From: Agroathelia rolfsii
Taxonomy: Eukaryota; Basidiomycota; Agaricomycetes; Amylocorticiales; Amylocorticiaceae
Length of the DNA stretch: 64,000 nucleotides
Direction: 5' to 3'
Assembly (NCBI GenBank): GCA_018343915.1
Contig: JABRWF010000002.1
Coordinates: forward strand, 4,464,001 to 4,528,000
Below the pieces are notes generated by a model that was given only the letters and a program-made list of their open reading frames with translations, had not been told where the DNA came from and did no database searches. Within the stretch, counting starts at the first letter, position 1; every line of letters begins with the position of its first letter. Shown here in pieces: positions 19,744-42,965 of the stretch. A program made the translations under genes and the position numbers.

Positions 19744-20986
19744 ATGTTGGAAAGCACACCTTCAGTCACATCCGGTGAAATTTCAGTCTATCTAGCCTTA
19801 GTGTTCTCAGCAGTATTTTATGGTTAGTCCATTATCTTTATACCATATGCTCTAAAAATTTTTGACGTTGGCGTTGGCATCGCAGGAATATATCTGTTAC
19901 TATTCCTAATTTCTGCTTACTGCCTTGAGGTTAACGCATATGTTACCCTTCGGCAACGGCGATTTTATCATGCATTTGGATTTGTTGTCCTTCTCCTCAA
20001 CACATACTTCTTTATTTCACGGGCTGCCGCAAGTCTGTTGATGTGGATTATTCATCGTGACTATCCGGGAGGACCACTGCAATACTTCTATCTTTGCTCA
20101 TCTTTTGGATGGTTTGTTACCGGCAATATTGCACAGAGCGTTGCAAACTTGTTAACTGACTTGCTCCTTGTAAGTCTGAACCAATATCAAACAGCCATAA
20201 TAGTAAATATGCATAATTTTGAAGACTTATCGATGTTACATTATCTATGGGAGCCAACTATGGGTTGTACTACTTCCTCTCTCATGTTCTATTGTGTTCA
20301 TAGGCAAGTGTTTAACCTGGTGATGCCAAAAAAAATTGTTTCTTGTTTACTGATACTCAACAGTCCTCTACATTGTGCTTGAAGTATATCAGGTGAATGG
20401 GGGGTATTTGTCTGTAACAGCAGGAACAAACATGGTCATTGCTAGCAATAGTATGACAATTGCTGCAAACATCATTGTTACTTTCATGATATCTTTGAGG
20501 CTCTATACGGCTCATAAACAGATTAAGAAAGTTCTCGATAAAAATCTAGCAACGACGTACACAGGTGTTGCAGCTATTTTCATTGAGTCCGCCCTTCCTT
20601 TTTGTATTCTCGGGATTATTTTCTGCATCACTATGTATGTGGGTTCAGTAACCGATGAAGTGTTTGAGTTGTTATGGTATTGGTCATGCGTTAGTATTCC
20701 AAAATTCTTTAGGCCCACTAATGTGCTTATTAACAATATTCATCTCCAGGCTATTGCACCCCAAGTAATCATTCTGCGCATTGCTCTAGGACATGCATGG
20801 AACAAAAACACGCTTTCAGAGCTTATGACAAAAACCAATATTGAATTTGGCACTCTAGATTTGGCTTTGGACTCACCAAATACAAGAGGGGCTGAAGAAC
20901 AATTTCGACGTTCCACCATTCCTCAGATGCAAACACAAGATACCTCAACACATATTTCATTCTCATTTGCTTCAAGTTCCTCATAA
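19744..20986 (+). CDS. Seven-TM membrane protein, orphan Agaricomycete family
   Basis: Five exons (19744-19822, 19886-20169, 20225-20303, 20364-20689, 20750-20986) give 334 residues with about seven hydrophobic helices. Family landmarks shared with the copies at 27552-29247 and 51474-52819 are FYG at the exon 1 end, LLMWIIHRDYPGG, a short exon coding YRCYIIYGSQLW, TYTGVAAIFIESALPFCILG, and APQVIILRIALGHAW in the last exon, then a polar tail. The N-terminus is probably outside and the tail inside by analogy with receptor-like 7-TM proteins, but no ligand or function is known. Intron 3 (20304-20363) has a GC donor (GCAAGT) instead of GT. A decayed tandem copy follows 250 bases downstream. Confidence 0.75.
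20304..20363 (+). other. GC-AG intron
   Basis: The donor reads TAG|GCAAGT and the acceptor CAACAG. Only this junction joins ...CSIVFI to VLYIVLEVYQ in frame. The equivalent intron in the downstream pseudogene (21675-21743) also has a GC donor (GCGAGT), so the non-canonical donor predates the duplication. Confidence 0.7.
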
Positions 20987-21238
20987 AAGATTGTTCTTAT
21001 TTGAATGTTGGATTTGTAATAACAGCTTACATTTAATCATTAAGTAGTACAAATTTTGTGTAGAAATTTAACATTAAAACCTGAAGAGTCCCTAGGTGTG
21101 ACAGTGATACCATAGTTGACTTGGTGGCTCTTGCTGACTTAAATTATTCAAAACCAGGAAGGTTTTTCAAAGAAAAATGACATTTTTACCATTATCCTAT
21201 GACAAGGGATATAATAATCGTAACCACCACTTCTCATA

Positions 21239-22368
21239 GGAATCTATCTGTTACTTTTCCTGACGTCTACTTACTGCCATCAGTTTAACGCAAACGTTGC
21301 TTTTTGGCAGCGCCGATTCCACCATGCCTTTGGAGTTACGGTTCTTCTCCTCAACACTTACTTCTTTGTTTCATGAGTTGCAGCAAGTCTGTTGATGTGG
21401 ATTATTCACCGTGACTACCCAAGGGGGTCATTGGAATACTTCCTTCTCTGCTCTTCGGATGATTTGTTGCTGGAAACTTGACTCAGGCCGTGGCAAACAT
21501 GCTAACCGATCTTTTGCTCGTGGGTCCTGTCCCCTGGATTGCAAAAAATCAAACTATAGATGAAATACTAAAGTCAAATGCTATATCTACCCAATGTTTG
21601 TCGATGCTATATCATTTATGGAAGTCAACTATGGATTGTGGTGCTCCCTGTATTGTGTTCTATTGTATTTGTAGGCGAGTAATTTATTTGATTGTATCAG
21701 TGGCGATAGGTTTAAATCCATTGTATTCGCTCATGTACAATAGTACTCTACATCGTAATTGAAGTGATTCAAATAAACGGGGGCTGTTTGTCCGCAACAG
21801 AAGGACTGAACTTGATCATTGTATATAACAGTATGACTATTGCTGTCAACATTGTTGCTACAGGAATGGTTATTTTCACACTCCATACTATACACAAACA
21901 AATGGAAAATATCCTTGATAAAAATTTGACAAGGACGTACACGGGTATTGTGGCCATTCTCATTGAGCTCGCGCTCCCCTTTTGCATTCTTGGCACCTTT
22001 TCCTGCATCATGGAGTATGTGAGCTTAGTCACCGATGAGGTATTTGAGTGAGTATGATATTGGTTATGTGTTAGCATTTTTCAATGTTATATAAACTGGC
22101 CCATATCGGTATTCTTACTAATATTCTTCACTTCTAGGCTATCTCACCTCAAGTAATCATCCTACGCATTGCACTGGGACACGCTTGGAACATAAATACC
22201 TTATCAGAGCTTATGAAAAATACCAATGTTTATTTTGGCACGCCAGATCTGTCTTCAGGCTTATTGGATATGAGAGTAAATGTAGAACAGCGCTCCACCA
22301 TTCCTCAGATGCTAACACAGAGTAATTCAACACATTTCTCCTTTGTATCCAATTTTAATTCTTCATGA
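21239..22368 (+). pseudogene. Decayed tandem copy of the 7-TM gene
   Basis: Exons 2-5 of the gene at 19744 are recognisable in order: IYLLLFLTSTYC, NTYFFVS, LLMWIIHRDYPRG, RCYIIYGSQLWIVVLPVL, the exon from EVIQINGGCLSATEG, and the final APQVII-type exon (SPQVIILRIALGHAW). The copy has a TGA at the position of an Arg codon in NTYFF(V/I)S-R, and a frameshift near 21460 where FGWFV is replaced. It also has an altered exon 4 end (FE followed by TGA), and no counterpart of exon 1 was found upstream. It is therefore a truncated, non-functional duplicate. The 250-base gap to the parent gene supports unequal tandem duplication. Confidence 0.8.
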
Positions 22369-32939: not shown

Positions 32940-33731
32940 AGAGAGGGATGAGCAAACAACGGAAGACATGCCCACAGGATAAATGGGGAATTTAGTTTCT
33001 GTGAATCGGCCTCGGCGTTACTTCTCAATGTGATATTTAATATTTGATGGTCAGTATTTTGATGAATGGACATGACCTCATGGCCGACTATGTATATATA
33101 ACATCTTACTGCTAATGTTACCAAAGTTTCTAATTGATATAGATGGCCGATTTGCCGCTCGGTTTTACAAAACAGCGATACTGATCATGGTCTACCTGCC
33201 ATTGGATCAGGTCGCTCCTTTATCGAACGCACGGAGGTGCTCAAGTCCCGACCGCATCACAGTATCATCAATAGACGCCGCCAGCCTGCTCTCGGACCTA
33301 GATCACCGTACCTGAGAAAACGGCAACTTTACTCAGTAACGTGATTGGATTGCTACATTTTGCTGGGGACGCACCCATACGACTATCTACGCTCAAGAGC
33401 ATTGAGGTCAAAATATACTATTAACATCTCTTCAGGTTACTCTGTCGATAATCCGAATCTTCGAATCCAAGTATCAAGGTCTCAACTCAGTTCTTCGGAT
33501 CTTTCAGACGTGTAGAGCTGATATCATAATGTATCAGCGCTATATTCTATGCATCATGATTCAAAATCGAGTTTGATGGAATTTTTCACCATCTGACATG
33601 CAGCGAATGAAATATCTACAGCGTGGTCATATAAAGGGTACCGAGGGCAAAGTCTCAATATGCGTAGGAATAGTTGCAAATCTTCTTATCCCATCCACCC
33701 TCTCTCTCCAAGTTGATAAGCACTTAAAAAA
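32940..33731. other. Intergenic, upstream of first secreted-peptide gene
   Basis: No gene seen. It contains the motif TGCATCATG at 33550-33558 and a TATA-like CATATAAAGGG near 33630, upstream of the peptide gene at 33732. Confidence 0.5.
33550..33558 (+). promoter_or_regulatory. Shared upstream motif TGCATCATG (copy 1)
   Basis: The identical 9-mer TGCATCATG occurs 182 bases before the start codon of the peptide gene at 33732, and upstream of the paralogues at 36556 and 39307. No factor is known to me for it here. Confidence 0.4.
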
Positions 33732-34091
33732 ATGAGGTCTCTCTTTGTTTTTGTTCCTACAATCTTGTTAATGTTCATGACCGATGGTGCACCTATACTC
33801 GAGATAAAGGTGTGTTTTAATTGTTCGCTCAATAGAATTATTGTTGCAATTTGCAAAAGAAATTTAATTGAATGCCTCAACTGTTCTAACCATTAGGACA
33901 CAACCGGAAAGATACGGCTCATAGATCACGCGAAGGATGCCCTCATTCCTCATATGCCCCGACATATTGACACAGTATTTGATGTCAACTACTTCCCCGC
34001 CCGGGCTGAAAACGTTGACGAAAGTTTCTGGGTTGATTATCAGCCCTCTACGGACGTTGAAGAATCATTCGCAAACGATAGCTCGTACTAA
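33732..34091 (+). CDS. Small secreted protein, peptide-precursor family member 1 (90 aa)
   Basis: Exon 1 (33732-33809, 26 codons) codes a signal peptide (SLFVFVPTILLMFMTDG, then APILEIK). A phase-0 intron (33810-33896) follows directly. Exon 2 (33897-34091) codes 64 polar residues. Exon 1 has exactly the same length and pattern as in the gene at 36556, and the intron is at the same place, so these are paralogues. Exon 2 ends in two loosely repeated units (VNYFPARAENVDESF and VDYQPSTDVEESF). They resemble a decayed form of the NYYAPVYKDFIEE repeat of the neighbour. There are no cysteines in the mature part. Function unknown; probably secreted. Confidence 0.65.
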
Positions 34092-36555
34092 CATACTAGC
34101 TGCAGTTTTGAAGAAGTTGTATAAGAAGCCAACTCGGACTTGTAATAACTTGAACTTGTCACTCAGGAGCTAGGATAGCATTTTTCTCATTAGACAACAC
34201 CTAAAATTGCACTTGTATCTAGGAAAGGTTGTATAAGGTTGTACACCCAAACCCTATCTTATTTACCGCATGTAGTATACAACCTCGGAAATCTGGCTTT
34301 TTCAAAATGAAGCTAAAAGAAAAGAAAATGTGAATGAAAAGTGGACCAGTAAAGAATTAAACCCAATGAGAAATTGGGACGACGGAAGCGGATACTAGTA
34401 GAAGTTGCGGAAACACGACGAACATGGACAAACACACTGAAACTTGAAGCTTGAAGCGCTAATCTTTTTCTCTGTATTTTAACTGTTATTTGAGCCAAAT
34501 CTCATTAACACTACGCTTGACCTTATATATATACTGTATTCAAGTCCGCAGGTCAACCATCTCAAGTCACCAATGGATAAATCAAACTTCTCCATCTAAG
34601 GGCTACCTAGTAGTACCGGAACAATTCTACGAATTCTCTATCAGATTTTACCCCCGAAGTTCGGGCTTCTTGCACACTTCAGCCATGAGCTATTGTAAAC
34701 CGATATTACCAGTGATATGATGTTCTAGAACACTAAGGTAATGGATCGTGGTTGCACCCCTTTCCTGGCCCACAGTATAGATTCTATAGAATTGCGCTTG
34801 GTCATTTTTAACGTAGAGTGTTGCAGCATCAACAAGTCTTAGGTCAATTATCCCATGAAAATCAAAATCCTGGGCTTTTATACTTTGCGTATGAACCGAG
34901 TTGCAATTATTGTGATTCTCAACATCATAAGAATTGAAATAAAACACAACAGATTTGATGCGTTCATTGACAATGTTTCAAACGTACTGTACAAAAGGAG
35001 GATGGACCTTGTTACATGCATCGTGAATCCAGGCTACTGACCGTCTGCTGTTCTCTTCTTTGGCTTCTGCAAGTGAAGAAATACGTTTTACTCTTAGGTT
35101 CTCAAAAATTGAAGCTCCTGTAGATCACGTGCCAGTGACTTTCATGATCATTTCAATAAATAAAACTCTACTCAAAAATTCCCCACTGGTAGAAAATATC
35201 AGCTAGGCTTGCTTCTGTGTATAGTTTATCTCGAAAGCCAACTAATATTTTTAGTCTACTATGAAGCCGGTGAAGACATGTAACTGAACGTGACTACTAT
35301 CACGTGGCTCCACGTGATTCACTAAGACTTGATCATGATCATAAGCGAGTCTTGTTGTTAGCTATCCGGGCTTCCCTCCTGCGGGCTTACAGCTCAAACA
35401 TCGGCTATATCATGAGTGATTCATCTCTGGGAATACAACACATACACGGACCTATCTCTATTGTAGCCTCCACCTGGACAATAGTTCTCGAAAACCTACC
35501 ACCGCGGCCTCCGAGTCCTTTCAAAACGCTTTGGGAGCTGCAGTTAGACAAGTGTTCGGAGTGCTTGCAATTCCCTACCGCATGCTTCCTTAATCAATCA
35601 AGATGAATATGAAGATGTGATACCAACACCAATCTCTTTAAGGGGGGCATTTCAGTAGCTTCTGTCCTTAGTCTTTAGTCTCTGCCGCGTTGGTATTCAA
35701 ACCGTTATGCACTCATAATTCTCCACTTCTAAGTATCATGGTCGTCTAAAATGACTTGTGCGGTGGAGACGAGATGAATCTTTCGCAGCTCATTGCGATC
35801 CAATCAATTGTTGTAATGTGCGCTCTTACCTCGACATACCATCTTACCCAAAGGAACATAGTCCTCGTGACACCGATCTTTGGCGGGGTATCCTCATCTG
35901 ACCCTCTAACGTATGAATAGATATCAATCTACCTTATGCTGGAATTTGCAAGCTGTGTAACTCCTTACACTCTTTTCTTGTTAGCTGTGCTCAGAGTCTG
36001 TTATCTTCCGTCCTCTTTTCTCTTTCTTTGCTGGCTGGTTATTTCTGTTGTCAAAACACCTGACTTCAACCAGAGCTCCCAAATGCGGAGTCAAATGATT
36101 ATCAAAAACTTCTTGTTCGACATTATAAGACTCTGATCAATTCTTGCGGCCTAAATGGCGGTTCTTTCCCGGATCTTTGAGCTGCGGGATACTTTGACTT
36201 GCATAATCAATTGAGACATGGCTCTAAGGCGTCAATGAGCCCCGGCTATCATGTATTATGCATCATGTGTCATATACTACAGCTCTAAATGAGAAATGAT
36301 GGAAGCACTTTCTTGATATGCAATATATAGAGAACATGATGATCGCAGAAATATTGCGTGATTCAGGTGTCACTTGACCGCTTTCTCTGCGAGTCTGAGG
36401 TTCAACTCAAGCCCGAGTTGTCCTAATTTTGTTTTTCTTTTTTACTATGTGCAATGCGATTACATATAAAATCTGCTGAAGATACACGGTACATAGCGAT
36501 TGGCAGCCCCAAGCTTCCTCTCTTGCTTCACTCTCATTAGACGTCTTTACCTACA
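34092..36555. other. Intergenic between peptide genes 1 and 2
   Basis: No supported gene. Two open frames were looked at: a - strand frame of about 90 codons (34690-34960) without ATG, and a hydrophobic 66-codon frame at 35936-36136. Neither has recognisable motifs. The promoter of the next gene holds TGCATCATG at 36259 and a TATA-like ACATATAAAATC near 36463. Confidence 0.4.
36259..36267 (+). promoter_or_regulatory. Shared upstream motif TGCATCATG (copy 2)
   Basis: It lies 297 bases before the ATG at 36556. The surrounding sequence aligns loosely with the region upstream of 39307 (TGCATCATG, then an AATGATGG element, then ATGCAATATATA), suggesting that promoter and gene were duplicated together. 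Confidence 0.5.
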
Positions 36556-36884
36556 ATGAAGTCCTTGTTTATAACTATTCCCGCTATCCTTGCCATGTCT
36601 ATGGCTTTTGGTGCGCCTGTCCTCGAAGAAAAGGTATGTATTTAAAGTCGTCAAATCATGAGTAACAATTAGTATGTGCTAATCCAAGAGGTTTGTGATC
36701 TAATCACTAGGGCATAAACAAAGAGAGACAGATAGAAAATTATTATGCACCCGTCTACAAGGATTTCATTGAAGAAAGACAGATAGAGGATTATTACTCG
36801 CCCGTCTATAAAGACTTCATTGAAAAGAGGCAGATAGAGAACTACTACGCACCGGTCTACAAAGATTCCATCAACTTAGATTAA
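36556..36884 (+). CDS. Secreted precursor with three tandem Tyr-rich 17-residue repeats
   Basis: Exon 1 (36556-36633, 26 codons) codes a signal peptide (SLFITIPAILAMSMAFG, then APVLEEK). A phase-0 intron (36634-36710) follows. Exon 2 (36711-36884) starts GINKE and then carries three repeats: RQIENYYAPVYKDFIEE, RQIEDYYSPVYKDFIEK and RQIENYYAPVYKDSINLD. The repeats are preceded by KE, EE and EK, giving ER, ER and KR boundaries; only the last is a classic Kex2 site. Cleavage after R would leave N-terminal Gln. The plan (signal peptide plus near-identical short repeats at basic residues) is that of repeat-containing secreted fungal peptides, including dikaritin-type RiPP precursors such as those of ustiloxin. 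No UstY-type (DUF3328) modifying gene is seen nearby. Total 83 residues, no cysteine. Confidence 0.75.
36726..36878 (+). repeat. Three in-frame 51-bp tandem repeats
   Basis: Units begin at AGACAGATAGAAAATTATTA (36726), AGACAGATAGAGGATTATTA (36777) and AGGCAGATAGAGAACTACTA (36828). Most differences between units are at third codon positions (for example AAT/AAC, TAT/TAC, GTC kept). This suggests selection on the peptide rather than very recent copying. Confidence 0.8.
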
Positions 36885-37314: not shown

Positions 37315-37927
37315 TCAATAATAAAACGATACCCACACGGATGTCAAACTATATGAGATCGTCATTAAATTTTGATCCCGTCATAAAATTGCATAGTATC
37401 CGCTGCATAAAAGTCTCACCATTTCCGTTTGTATCCGTCGGGTGAAATGATGTGTATATATTGCAGCTTTTATTTGCACATATCCTATTTTTGTTACAAT
37501 TTATAGTATCTAACTGCCATGTGCTTTGGTAGCCTCCAACCCAATCGTATGCATCTACTGTGCCACAGAAACCGTGCAGAGCACGACCCACCGTCAATAT
37601 TTGGATATTTGAATCCAAGTGTTTGAGCCGCCTTAGCAAGAATCATCATTCCGTTTATGGCTTGGTACCGCACTCCGTCCCATTTTCACTTCATGAAATT
37701 TTATTGTTGGTTTGGTATGCATACAAGTAGATTTTACTTAATACATGGTATGCATTTATCGCCCTTGCATGTAGTAAATCAAGCATTTTACCTGAGCTGG
37801 GCTGCGTTCCGCGTTGAATTTTAGCACCCACAGTTGGCAGTGTGCCTCCTACGGTAAGTTTATTTGCCAACAAAGTGCTGAGATTATGTTTTGACTTTCT
37901 TCCGTGCGAAGCACGGGTAAATACTTG
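37315..37927 (+). mobile_element. Helitron-like non-autonomous element, copy 1
   Basis: Begins A|TCAATAATAAAAC and ends with a perfect hairpin CCGTGC-GAA-GCACGG (37902-37916), 11 bases before the terminus CTTG (37924-37927). A 5' TC, a 3' hairpin 10-12 nt before the end and insertion after A and before T are Helitron features; the usual terminus is CTRR, and CTTG would be a variant. No coding capacity. The next copy begins at the very next base. Confidence 0.5.
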
Positions 37928-38477
37928 TCAATAATAAAACAACACCTACTCAAATGTCAGACTATATGAGATTGTCATTAAATTTTGATCCCGTAATACA
38001 ATTTCGTATCCGCTGCATGAAAATTTCATCATTTTTGTTTGTATCCATTAGGTGAAATAATACATTTTTTGTAGCTCATATTTGCGCTGCGTCGTGACAA
38101 AATGCGCATATATCCTATTTCCACTAAAATTGGTATCATTTACAGTATGCGACTGTAATGTACTTTAGTAGTTCTCCAAGTCGATGGTATGTATCTGCTC
38201 AGATTCTGCTGTGCTACTGGAGCCATGCTCCGCACAGCCCATTGTCGATATTTGAATCCGAGTGTTTAAGCTGCATTGACAAGCATTGTCGTTCTGTTTA
38301 TCTTGGTACCGGACTCCATCAAGTTTTCTCTTCATGAAGATTTATTGTTGGTTTGGTATATATACAGGTAAATTTTACTCAATGTATGCTATGTATTTAA
38401 TTACCCTTACACGTAGTCAATTGAGCTATAATTATTTTTTTTGGCTTTCTTCCGTGCAAAGCACAGGTGAATGCTTG
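37928..38477 (+). mobile_element. Helitron-like non-autonomous element, copy 2 (head-to-tail)
   Basis: Starts TCAATAATAAAAC like copy 1 and shares long stretches with it (for example ATTAAATTTTGATCCCGT). It ends with an imperfect hairpin CCGTGC-AAA-GCACAG (38452-38466) 11 bases before CTTG (38474-38477), followed by T. Copy 2 is shorter and diverged, so the pair is not recent. Confidence 0.5.
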
Positions 38478-39306: not shown

Positions 39307-39614
39307 ATGAAGTCTTTAATTGCTATTCCCGCCATTCTTGTCGTGACCATGGCTGTCGCCACACCTGTTGTCAGAGATCAGGTTTGTATTCTATCACTTG
39401 TCAAATTCATAGCAGTAACAAGGATATATTACTGCATGGTATTGATTGGTCTCACTCTTAGGGTGTACTCGAAGGAGAACAGATAAAACATCATAATATA
39501 TTAAGGAACTACCTGAATATAGACGCACAGGCGGCTGAGCCCAAGAGAGCACGAGATGTAGACCTGGTATTCTCGACCAACTACACATTTACTGAAGTAA
39601 CCAAACAAACGTAA
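39307..39614 (+). CDS. Small secreted protein, peptide-precursor family member 3 (75 aa)
   Basis: Exon 1 (39307-39381, 25 codons) codes a signal peptide of the same pattern as at 36556 (SLIAIPAILVVTMAVATP, then VVRDQ). A phase-0 intron (39382-39461) follows at the same position. Exon 2 (39462-39614) codes 50 residues, including a basic site EPKRARDVD that could be a Kex2 cleavage point (after KR). Cleavage would release an approximately 20-residue C-terminal peptide beginning ARDVDLVFSTNYTFTEV. The three-repeat arrangement of the neighbour is not present. No cysteines. Function unknown. Confidence 0.65.
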
Positions 39615-40659: not shown

Positions 40660-42965
40660 ATGAGTACAACCAACAAGCCAACGATCCAGTTCCGTGGTTC
40701 GTGGTATACTGCTAACTTAGCGACATCATAGACAGACTTTTGATCAAAAAATAGCACTTCTCCTGGCCAGCGAGCAGCGTAATGCTTATGGTCTTCGATA
40801 CAACGACTATGCACGTTACCGGTAATTACTGGCTTGCATAGACTCTCTGATTGCTTTCGAAACTTTTTACGTCTATCAGGAAACACTGTGCCAATCGGAC
40901 TCATCGTGTCCGCTCATCGCTCAAGATAACGCATGGCAAGGGCCGCGATTTCAAGAAGCTACCTGCGATCACCACCGAAAACATCAAGGAGGGACAGTAC
41001 GTATCTATATCACGCTCTACCGCAGGCCTGAAATCTAAATCAATCTCTCACTTCTAACAGCCTTCAACTTCTGCTATACGAGTCTGAGCGCGCATGGGCT
41101 TTTGCTCAGGACCTTCTCACTCAGTCGCTACTTCCTGCGAACTCATCTCATGCCAGCACATTGCGTCACAGCGCCAGTGGTCGCTTCCGTCGCGCCGTCT
41201 CCTGGTCCACTCAACTTCTCACGCATGCGCTGACTCTTTACTCCGAAGGACGCTTCTCCGCATCGCATCTACTTGAGGTACATATCTACGTCCTCATTCT
41301 CACGGGTCGATTCCTCCTGCGCATCCGTGAAGAACCCGAACCGGCACTCGAACATCTCGCCGTCGCACGACAATTGCTCCTCGATACACTCGCGCGGACG
41401 GCGCAGACGAGTCGTGATCAGGCGCTTGCGGTCCAATTCGCGGACGAGATTGCACCTGAGGTGCGTCTGTGCGCACATGAGCTTGGACGCACGCGCGCGT
41501 ACGATGTTGATTCGATCTCGGCGGAGCTTGGTGCTAAGCATCGTGGAGAGCTCGTTATTGGATGTGAGGCATTGCTGAAGCGTGTGGATGAGGAGGCTCA
41601 GGCGGAGGGTGGGGACAGGGACGCTCGTCGGCTGGCGCCGTTGTTGTGGGAGGGCGAGCTTGTGCCTGTGCGCTACCCCGAGTTGGTGGATGCGCTGCTC
41701 AGGGTGCAGGACGCGGAGAAGAAGCTTGCGTCCTCATCTTCGTCCGAAGGTGCTAAGCAAGGCTCTAAGAAGAGTGTCGCAGCTTATGATGCGATTCTGC
41801 TTGCATTGAGCGACGCCGAGAACGTTGCACACAAATTGGTCGAGGCTCAGCAGGCAATCTTATGTGTTCATATGCCATACTATAGGTGTTTAACATTCCT
41901 TATTTAGGTCAGTAGCGCCAATGCGCCCTCCGCCGCCGCCGGCACGCGAGATATCATCTTCGTACACGCATACATCACCTATCAGCTCTTAGCCAGGCGT
42001 TCTCAGCGTGATCTCCAACTGACTACGGCATTACTAAGCTCGTCATCATCGTCACCGGGACTGCCCAAGTCCTCCGCCAAGGCCACTTCGGTGGATTCAA
42101 GGCTTTTCCCTGCCGTCGTCAAGCTTCTGGATAGCGTACTTCAAAGCCTGGACCAGATGCGTGTCCTGAGTCTTGTTGATGAGAGCTCGGAGGATATTGC
42201 GTCTGCCATTGACGCCCGCATCTCATTTACCAAGGCTCGCAGGTAAATCTAGACTTTGGCCAAAATGATTTTCATTAATGATTCATCCCCCTCTCTTTTC
42301 TTTTTGTACATAGATGTTTATATCTCTCTCGCTGCTACACCCCCGTTAAGAAATACGCCGAGGCGCTCACGCTGCTCCAACGTGGCTCACTACATATCCG
42401 CGCCACTCGCACCCTGTTTCCCTCTTCCGCCACTGACGAAAAACCCAGCGCGGAAGACCCGCTCGCATTCTACCCTCTCACTGACGCGCATCTTATCACG
42501 CTCGAGACCGACATAGGGGCAGACTCGGCAACGTGCAAGCAGGCTTGGTTCACGCACAACGGCGGCATAATCGTGCTCGACGATCAGCAACAAGCCACGG
42601 CGGAAAATCGCAAGGCGAAGAAGAAGCCTCTATTCTTCGACATCGCGCTCAACTATGCCACGCTTGATATGGATCGACTGGCAGAGCGCGCGGGCAAGGA
42701 GCCGCGCGAGACGACACCAGCGGCGCCGGTTGTGACAACTACGAAGGCGACGTCGTTGTTACAAGAAAAGGGAGCAGCTCAACCGCAGCAGCCTCAGACG
42801 AGTAGTGGCGGCGGCGGCGGCGGAGCGCAACAAAGGCAGACCGCGGTGGTGCGCGATGACATCTCGCGCTCGCAAACGCCGGAACCTAGTGCAACTCAGC
42901 AACAGCAGCAACAGTCCGGTAGTAGGCTGGGTAGTTTACTCGGTGGATGGTGGGGAAGGTCATAA
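40660..42965 (+). CDS. SRP68: Signal recognition particle subunit SRP68
   Basis: Component of the eukaryotic SRP that, with SRP72, binds 7S RNA and supports co-translational targeting to the ER. Six exons (40660-40696, 40755-40821, 40880-40996, 41061-41853, 41908-42242, 42314-42965) join in phase to 666 residues. The N-terminal RNA-binding part holds LLLASEQRNAYGLRYNDYAR followed by YRKHCANRTHRVRSSL, the most conserved SRP68 block. Next come KKLPAITTEN and LLLYESERAWAFAQDL. The middle is helical, and the C-terminal part is low-complexity (Ala/Gln/Gly) ending LGSLLGGWWGRS. Exon 1 is short (37 nt); ATG 40660 is chosen because it is the only start that joins in phase. Intron 4 (41854-41907) has a GC donor. 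Confidence 0.9.
41854..41907 (+). other. GC-AG intron in SRP68
   Basis: The donor reads CAG|GCAATC and the acceptor TTATTTAG, 54 nt. It joins EAQQ to VSSANAPSAAAG in phase 0. The nearest GT alternative (GTGTTC) gives a stop codon after the junction. Confidence 0.6.

Follow-up and report, generated by a model that had tools for sequence, protein, structure and literature searches.

A constrained three-repeat gene for a probable peptide precursor with mostly Glu-Arg repeat boundaries in the agaricomycete Agroathelia rolfsii

Can a fungal gene whose repeats are bounded mostly by Glu-Arg, and only once by a dibasic pair, be a precursor from which a kexin-type protease releases peptides? The question is raised by a small gene, here called gene B, on the forward strand of a 64,000-nucleotide stretch of the Agroathelia rolfsii genome (the window; contig JABRWF010000002.1, labelled C2 below, with other contigs labelled likewise). 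Its first exon (36556..36633) encodes a hydrophobic leader, MKSLFITIPAILAMSMAFGAPVLEEK, which looks by eye like a signal peptide. A predicted phase-0 intron of 77 bases with GT...AG ends follows (36634..36710), and the second exon, stop codon included, occupies 36711..36884. The product of 83 residues, MKSLFITIPAILAMSMAFGAPVLEEK joined to GINKERQIENYYAPVYKDFIEERQIEDYYSPVYKDFIEKRQIENYYAPVYKDSINLD, is made up of the leader, a short linker, three repeats and little else. A TATAAAA on the same strand (36465..36471), a consensus match only, lies 91 bases 5' of the ATG; pattern matching likewise placed TATAAA at -102 and TATATA at -97 upstream of two sister genes, A and C, respectively.

The repeats, all on the plus strand, adjoin one another: RQIENYYAPVYKDFIEE at 36726..36776, after NKE and with the boundary NKER; RQIEDYYSPVYKDFIEK at 36777..36827, with IEER; and RQIENYYAPVYKDSINLD at 36828..36881, with IEKR. 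At a lag of 17 residues 27 of 40 positions are identical, a count equalled by none of 20,000 shuffles (shuffle maximum 14). The initial annotation, made from the letters alone, had noted that the repeats differ mainly at third codon positions and that two of the three boundaries are ER rather than KR. Both points hold: repeat pairs show 10, 13 and 16 differences per 51 bases, of which 7, 9 and 10 are at third positions, and one boundary in three is dibasic. Every Arg of the mature part (3/3) stands at a repeat boundary, before Gln. Between repeats, over 48 bases per pair, dN was 0.05-0.14; dS was 2.4 in one pair and could not be estimated in the remaining two. Since the repeats differ mostly at synonymous sites, it is the peptide sequence that is kept; gene conversion would have equalised these sites, which are unlike among the repeats. 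A literature search with three core strings found no paper.

We found gene B a second time in the same genome, on C1 at 4.77 Mb, with 95% protein identity (mature part at C1:4768798, 96% identical). The C1 copy has the same intron position, the same frame and all three repeats in frame; its intron has 63 bases against 77 in the window, and the two introns agree at 48 of 63 ungapped positions. Across the 37.67-Mb genome a degenerate DNA pattern for QIE(N/D)YY(..)P has six occurrences, three per copy of the gene. Homologues with repeats out of frame had been named in advance as evidence against a precursor; given the intron position and the in-frame repeats of the C1 copy, this objection falls away, and the proposal of a tandem-repeat precursor with a signal-like leader is borne out by the gene model and the conserved second copy.

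The two copies are separated by 12 synonymous and 4 non-synonymous changes (omega 0.066), a deficit of non-synonymous changes (Fisher p 7.6e-7) that reveals strong purifying selection. For comparison, omega between paired copies was 0.123 for an exon of the neighbouring SRP68 gene, 0.41 and 0.47 for sister genes A and C, and 0.20 and 0.14 for two further relatives, D and E, but with few changes per gene the ranking is rough; the pattern of change in gene B differs from that of A and C pooled (p 0.006). The only two amino-acid changes in exon 2 are parallel I-to-V replacements in repeats 1 and 2 (FIEE and FIEK in the window, FVEE and FVEK on C1). Under a simple 3:1 transition weighting the chance that mutation alone gave the second, once the first had occurred, is about 0.01, for a single event that was noticed before testing.

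The similarity with C1 goes beyond gene B, as pieces of the window between 16 and 57 kb match a 40-kb segment of C1 (C1:4749000-4788999) at 69-89% DNA identity. Between genes B and C, the similar stretches 37597-37826 and 38242-38429 have C1 matches in both orientations and are therefore probably copies of a repeated element. Two neighbouring stretches at 19828-22365, in a gene with no Pfam match, share one C1 counterpart, which points to a tandem duplication of that gene. On C1 (L033:6757-7444) there are about 687 bases with the inverted ends ACAGTTGGTGTCAAAAGTC and GACTTTTGACACCAACTGT that are absent from the window at 33097-33098; read by eye, this insertion is MITE-like. Elsewhere in the genome, usually single-copy genes (SRP68, adenylosuccinate synthetase) are present twice. 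Compared locus pairs are 75-92% identical in DNA, and several occupy corresponding positions on contigs of like size; paired loci are L049/L050 (C6/C7), L005/L008 (C5/C4), L061/L062 (C7/C6), L059/L060 (C6/C7) and L043/L045 (C8/C2). Such pairing could reflect a hybrid, a duplication of the genome or, in a dikaryon, two haplotypes that have diverged. A literature search for hybrid or allodiploid agaricomycetes gave, among the matches listed, no agaricomycete genome paper by title.

About 4 kb downstream of gene B lies the SRP68 gene (41032-42965). Two of its exons gave Pfam matches above the cut-off among 30 long open frames of the window, where CofD, below the cut-off, was the only other match; neither tRNA nor Rfam families were found in the window. 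Among the best 120 of 477 SRP68 matches, the best named ones are 50-62% identical and belong to fungi classed as Agaricomycetes; one unnamed JGI entry is 93% identical. The ascomycete context assumed in the initial annotation is therefore wrong. Gene B is a real, constrained repeat-peptide precursor gene of an agaricomycete.

The two sister genes that flank gene B are of like build and on the same strand. Gene A has exons at 33732..33809 (leader MRSLFVFVPTILLMFMTDGAPILEIK) and 33897..34091, and gene C at 39307..39381 (leader MKSLIAIPAILVVTMAVATPVVRDQ) and 39462..39614 (with one KR, in EPKRARDVDLVF). Exon 2 of gene A reads EKR followed by QFKDY in the C1 copy and GKIRLIDH in the window copy; judged by eye, 33897-34091 also appears to contain a weak internal repeat, VNYFPARAENVDESF / VDYQPSTDVEESF. 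Searching the genome with the leader gave eight loci with an E value of 10 or less. Genes A and B account for four of them, two copies each, and gene C for one, its C1 copy; the others are a pair named E (C8:2528567 and C2:969604) and F6 (C6:3160544), which has no clean donor and may be decayed. The window copy of gene C was spotted on reading the sequence and also came up in a search with its exon 2. Two more genes, D6 (C6:3162256) and D7 (C7:3207022), came up weakly (E 0.07 and 0.10) in a search with the mature part of F6; on reading, the leader and intron of each marked it as a relative. Genes A to E all have a phase-0 intron directly after the leader.

That this set of precursors shares a leader is firmly established; a shared origin of the cores is shown in part. 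Shuffling, with 21 pairs tried and p values uncorrected, linked the mature parts of D, E and F to one another (p 0.001 each), and A resembles C (p 0.008) and C resembles E (p 0.007). The likeness of gene B to D is marginal (p 0.014 and 0.012), and its mature part has no significant likeness to A, C, E or F. Against Pfam and NCBIfam the 11 family proteins gave matches below the cut-off only. A profile of the 11 sequences matched one of 680 candidates, the entry P0123 (E 1.7e-9), which is gene A with 1 of 77 residues changed, unbroken across the predicted exon junction (GAPILEIK, then DTTGKIR). Because the leader frame of gene A hits a stop in the genome at 33894-33896, the last bases of the intron, the contiguous P0123 was most likely derived from spliced RNA; the label of its source, 'lgn', presumably denotes Logan read assemblies. 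P0123 thus supports the shared gene model, not expression of gene B.

How the Glu-Arg boundaries are to be read depends mainly on the relatives. The boundary after the leader is ESKR or ALKR in D and LKER or LEER in E, and other boundary-like sites are VAER in D, VAER and VDER in E, and IAKK in F, the correspondence among D, E and F being taken from comparison of their mature parts. In gene A, matched to B by eye, TEKR precedes QFKDY on C1 and GKIR is found in the window. Gene C has GEQIK, no such site, at the place of the first B boundary, and one KR further on. This interchange of Glu and Lys before a basic residue is the main reason for regarding the ER boundaries of gene B as probable cleavage sites. 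Two points speak against such cleavage. In a yeast-derived Kex2 matrix Glu at P2 has the value 0 (PMC2515848, Table 1), although sites with other P2 residues are said to be processed too (PMC2515848, section 7), and acidic or small residues are enriched downstream of cleaved sites, whereas the residue after the gene B boundaries is Gln. A kexin P-domain was found once on C6 and once on C7, in a search by which intron-split genes were possibly missed, and three KEX2 genes appear in the available text of a Coprinopsis cinerea study (PMC9769878).

Kex2-processed repeat peptides (KEPs) are defined, in the available part of Umemura 2020, by a signal peptide for the endoplasmic reticulum, at least three tandem repeats of at least 8 residues, and repeats lying between KR, KK, RK or RR. 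Gene B has three repeats of 17-18 residues, but one dibasic boundary in three; for this reason we do not file it as a strict KEP. The initial annotation, which had likened the repeats to such peptides, is supported as to the tandem-repeat precursor and not as to the dikaritin reading. Gene B has the build of a KEP, and it is slightly more likely than not that it works like one with relaxed boundaries. The available text of the C. cinerea study (PMC9769878) reports that agaricomycete KEPs yield linear peptides, many with N-terminal pyroglutamate, that Gln-started peptides from C. cinerea KEPs were detected as pyroglutamate, that several products of these KEPs in Pichia end at a single Arg, and that KEP knock-outs had no phenotype. 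KEP 497993 of that study, as far as described there, shares with gene B a leader with repeated cores, an agaricomycete host and a core start of Gln-Ile (there pyro-QIPAELPTKSINGNIEPY); gene B differs in its boundaries, mostly ER and not KR, RR or KK, and in the sequence of its core.

The reading that we favour, as a little better than an even prospect, is that gene B encodes a secreted kexin-type precursor of linear signal peptides with relaxed Glu-Arg sites. The leader would carry the precursor into the secretory pathway, a kexin-type protease would cut after Arg at NKER, IEER and IEKR, and a carboxypeptidase may trim the exposed basic residues. Linear peptides of about 15-17 residues, (pyro)QIE[N/D]YY[A/S]PVYKDFIE(E), would be released together with the C-terminal QIENYYAPVYKDSINLD; cutting at ER and KR would yield (pyro)QIENYYAPVYKDFIE(E) and (pyro)QIEDYYSPVYKDFIE. 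Such peptides could serve as signals outside the cell, with other organisms or mycelia as their most likely targets. That the repeats are released by proteolysis is plausible, while secretion, cleavage, pyroglutamate formation and function are what we infer for the product.

A small secreted repeat protein working uncut, for instance wall-bound or ligand-binding, with three Tyr-rich units that give avidity, is an unlikely but serious alternative. The ER pairs would then have no special meaning, and the lone KR would be fortuitous or a minor site, in keeping with two non-dibasic boundaries of three and with the yeast matrix value of 0, and the strong constraint would suit a binding protein equally. 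Such a protein does not account for the placing of all three mature-part Arg residues at repeat boundaries before Gln, nor for the interchange of ER, KR and KK at the boundary-like sites of relatives. It is improbable that the KR is cut alone, giving one C-terminal 17-residue QIENYYAPVYKDSINLD and leaving a longer N-terminal part. Of the three boundaries a yeast-type kexin should accept only IEKR, but equal constraint on repeats 1, 2 and 3 would be left unexplained.

Slightly less probable again is the dikaritin-type RiPP of the initial annotation, whose Tyr-rich core would be excised and then cyclised by UstYa-type enzymes with genes at other places in the genome. According to the available text of PMC7329392, the precursors of ustiloxin, asperipin-2a and phomopsin have, as gene B does, a leader and a repeated Tyr-containing core. 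The genome has at least 36 UstYa (PF11807) exon matches, only the best candidates being scored, and UstYa is common in Agaricomycetes, with 16 in Pleurotus for example (PMC8893723). However, the window, the 40-kb C1 segment, the rest of C1 and C7 contain none of the 36 matches listed (PF11807/DUF3328); the nearest listed on C2 is about 2.3 Mb away, and each of the other family loci is separated from any listed match by about 0.6 Mb or more. A dikaritin is therefore unlikely, and the absence of linked UstYa ruled it out as the main reading. Gene B further differs from the dikaritins of PMC7329392, so far as that text goes, in its basidiomycete host and in cores flanked mostly by non-dibasic sites (1/3 dibasic). 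In the same available text, 22% of 7878 surveyed KEPs have a DUF3328 gene nearby and 74% have neither a DUF3328 neighbour nor a pheromone annotation, so the unlinked state is usual for repeat precursors. Recent inverted duplications, or an effect of the assembly, are suggested by two near-identical inverted UstYa pairs on C2, at 1968784 and 1992456 (100% over 3,240 bases) and at 2092135 and 2188269 (98% over 1,697 bases).

A chance open frame or a decayed gene is very improbable: in the homologue search with gene B all 17 candidates had E values above 1, so that neither a transcript nor a protein was matched, but the omega of 0.066, the intact second copy with the same intron and the junction-spanning database protein of sister gene A all argue otherwise. 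Least credible is a mating-pheromone precursor, rejected as a main reading, since basidiomycete lipopeptide pheromones carry a C-terminal CAAX box and this agaricomycete gene has no Cys and ends in SINLD. It is a multi-copy secreted precursor like those of ascomycete alpha-pheromones in the available text of PMC6339444, but its cores start with QIE and no STE13 X-A/X-P run follows its boundaries (in the relatives D and E one X-P follows the leader boundary: VP, AP, EP), and basidiomycete pheromones are a-type and prenylated in the available text of PMC9769878.

We return to the linear peptides released at relaxed Glu-Arg sites, as the favoured reading has them. That the whole set forms a fungal peptide-hormone-like precursor family with a common leader exon and Glu-Arg maturation is a tentative proposal, itself rather unlikely. 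In their available parts, two published surveys require dibasic sites at the boundaries, so that a family like that of gene B would be missed. If Glu-Arg maturation is true, an agaricomycete kexin accepts Glu at P2 and dibasic-only surveys overlook a class of secreted fungal peptides; processing at the ER sites would mean that there are more mushroom peptides than are now listed.
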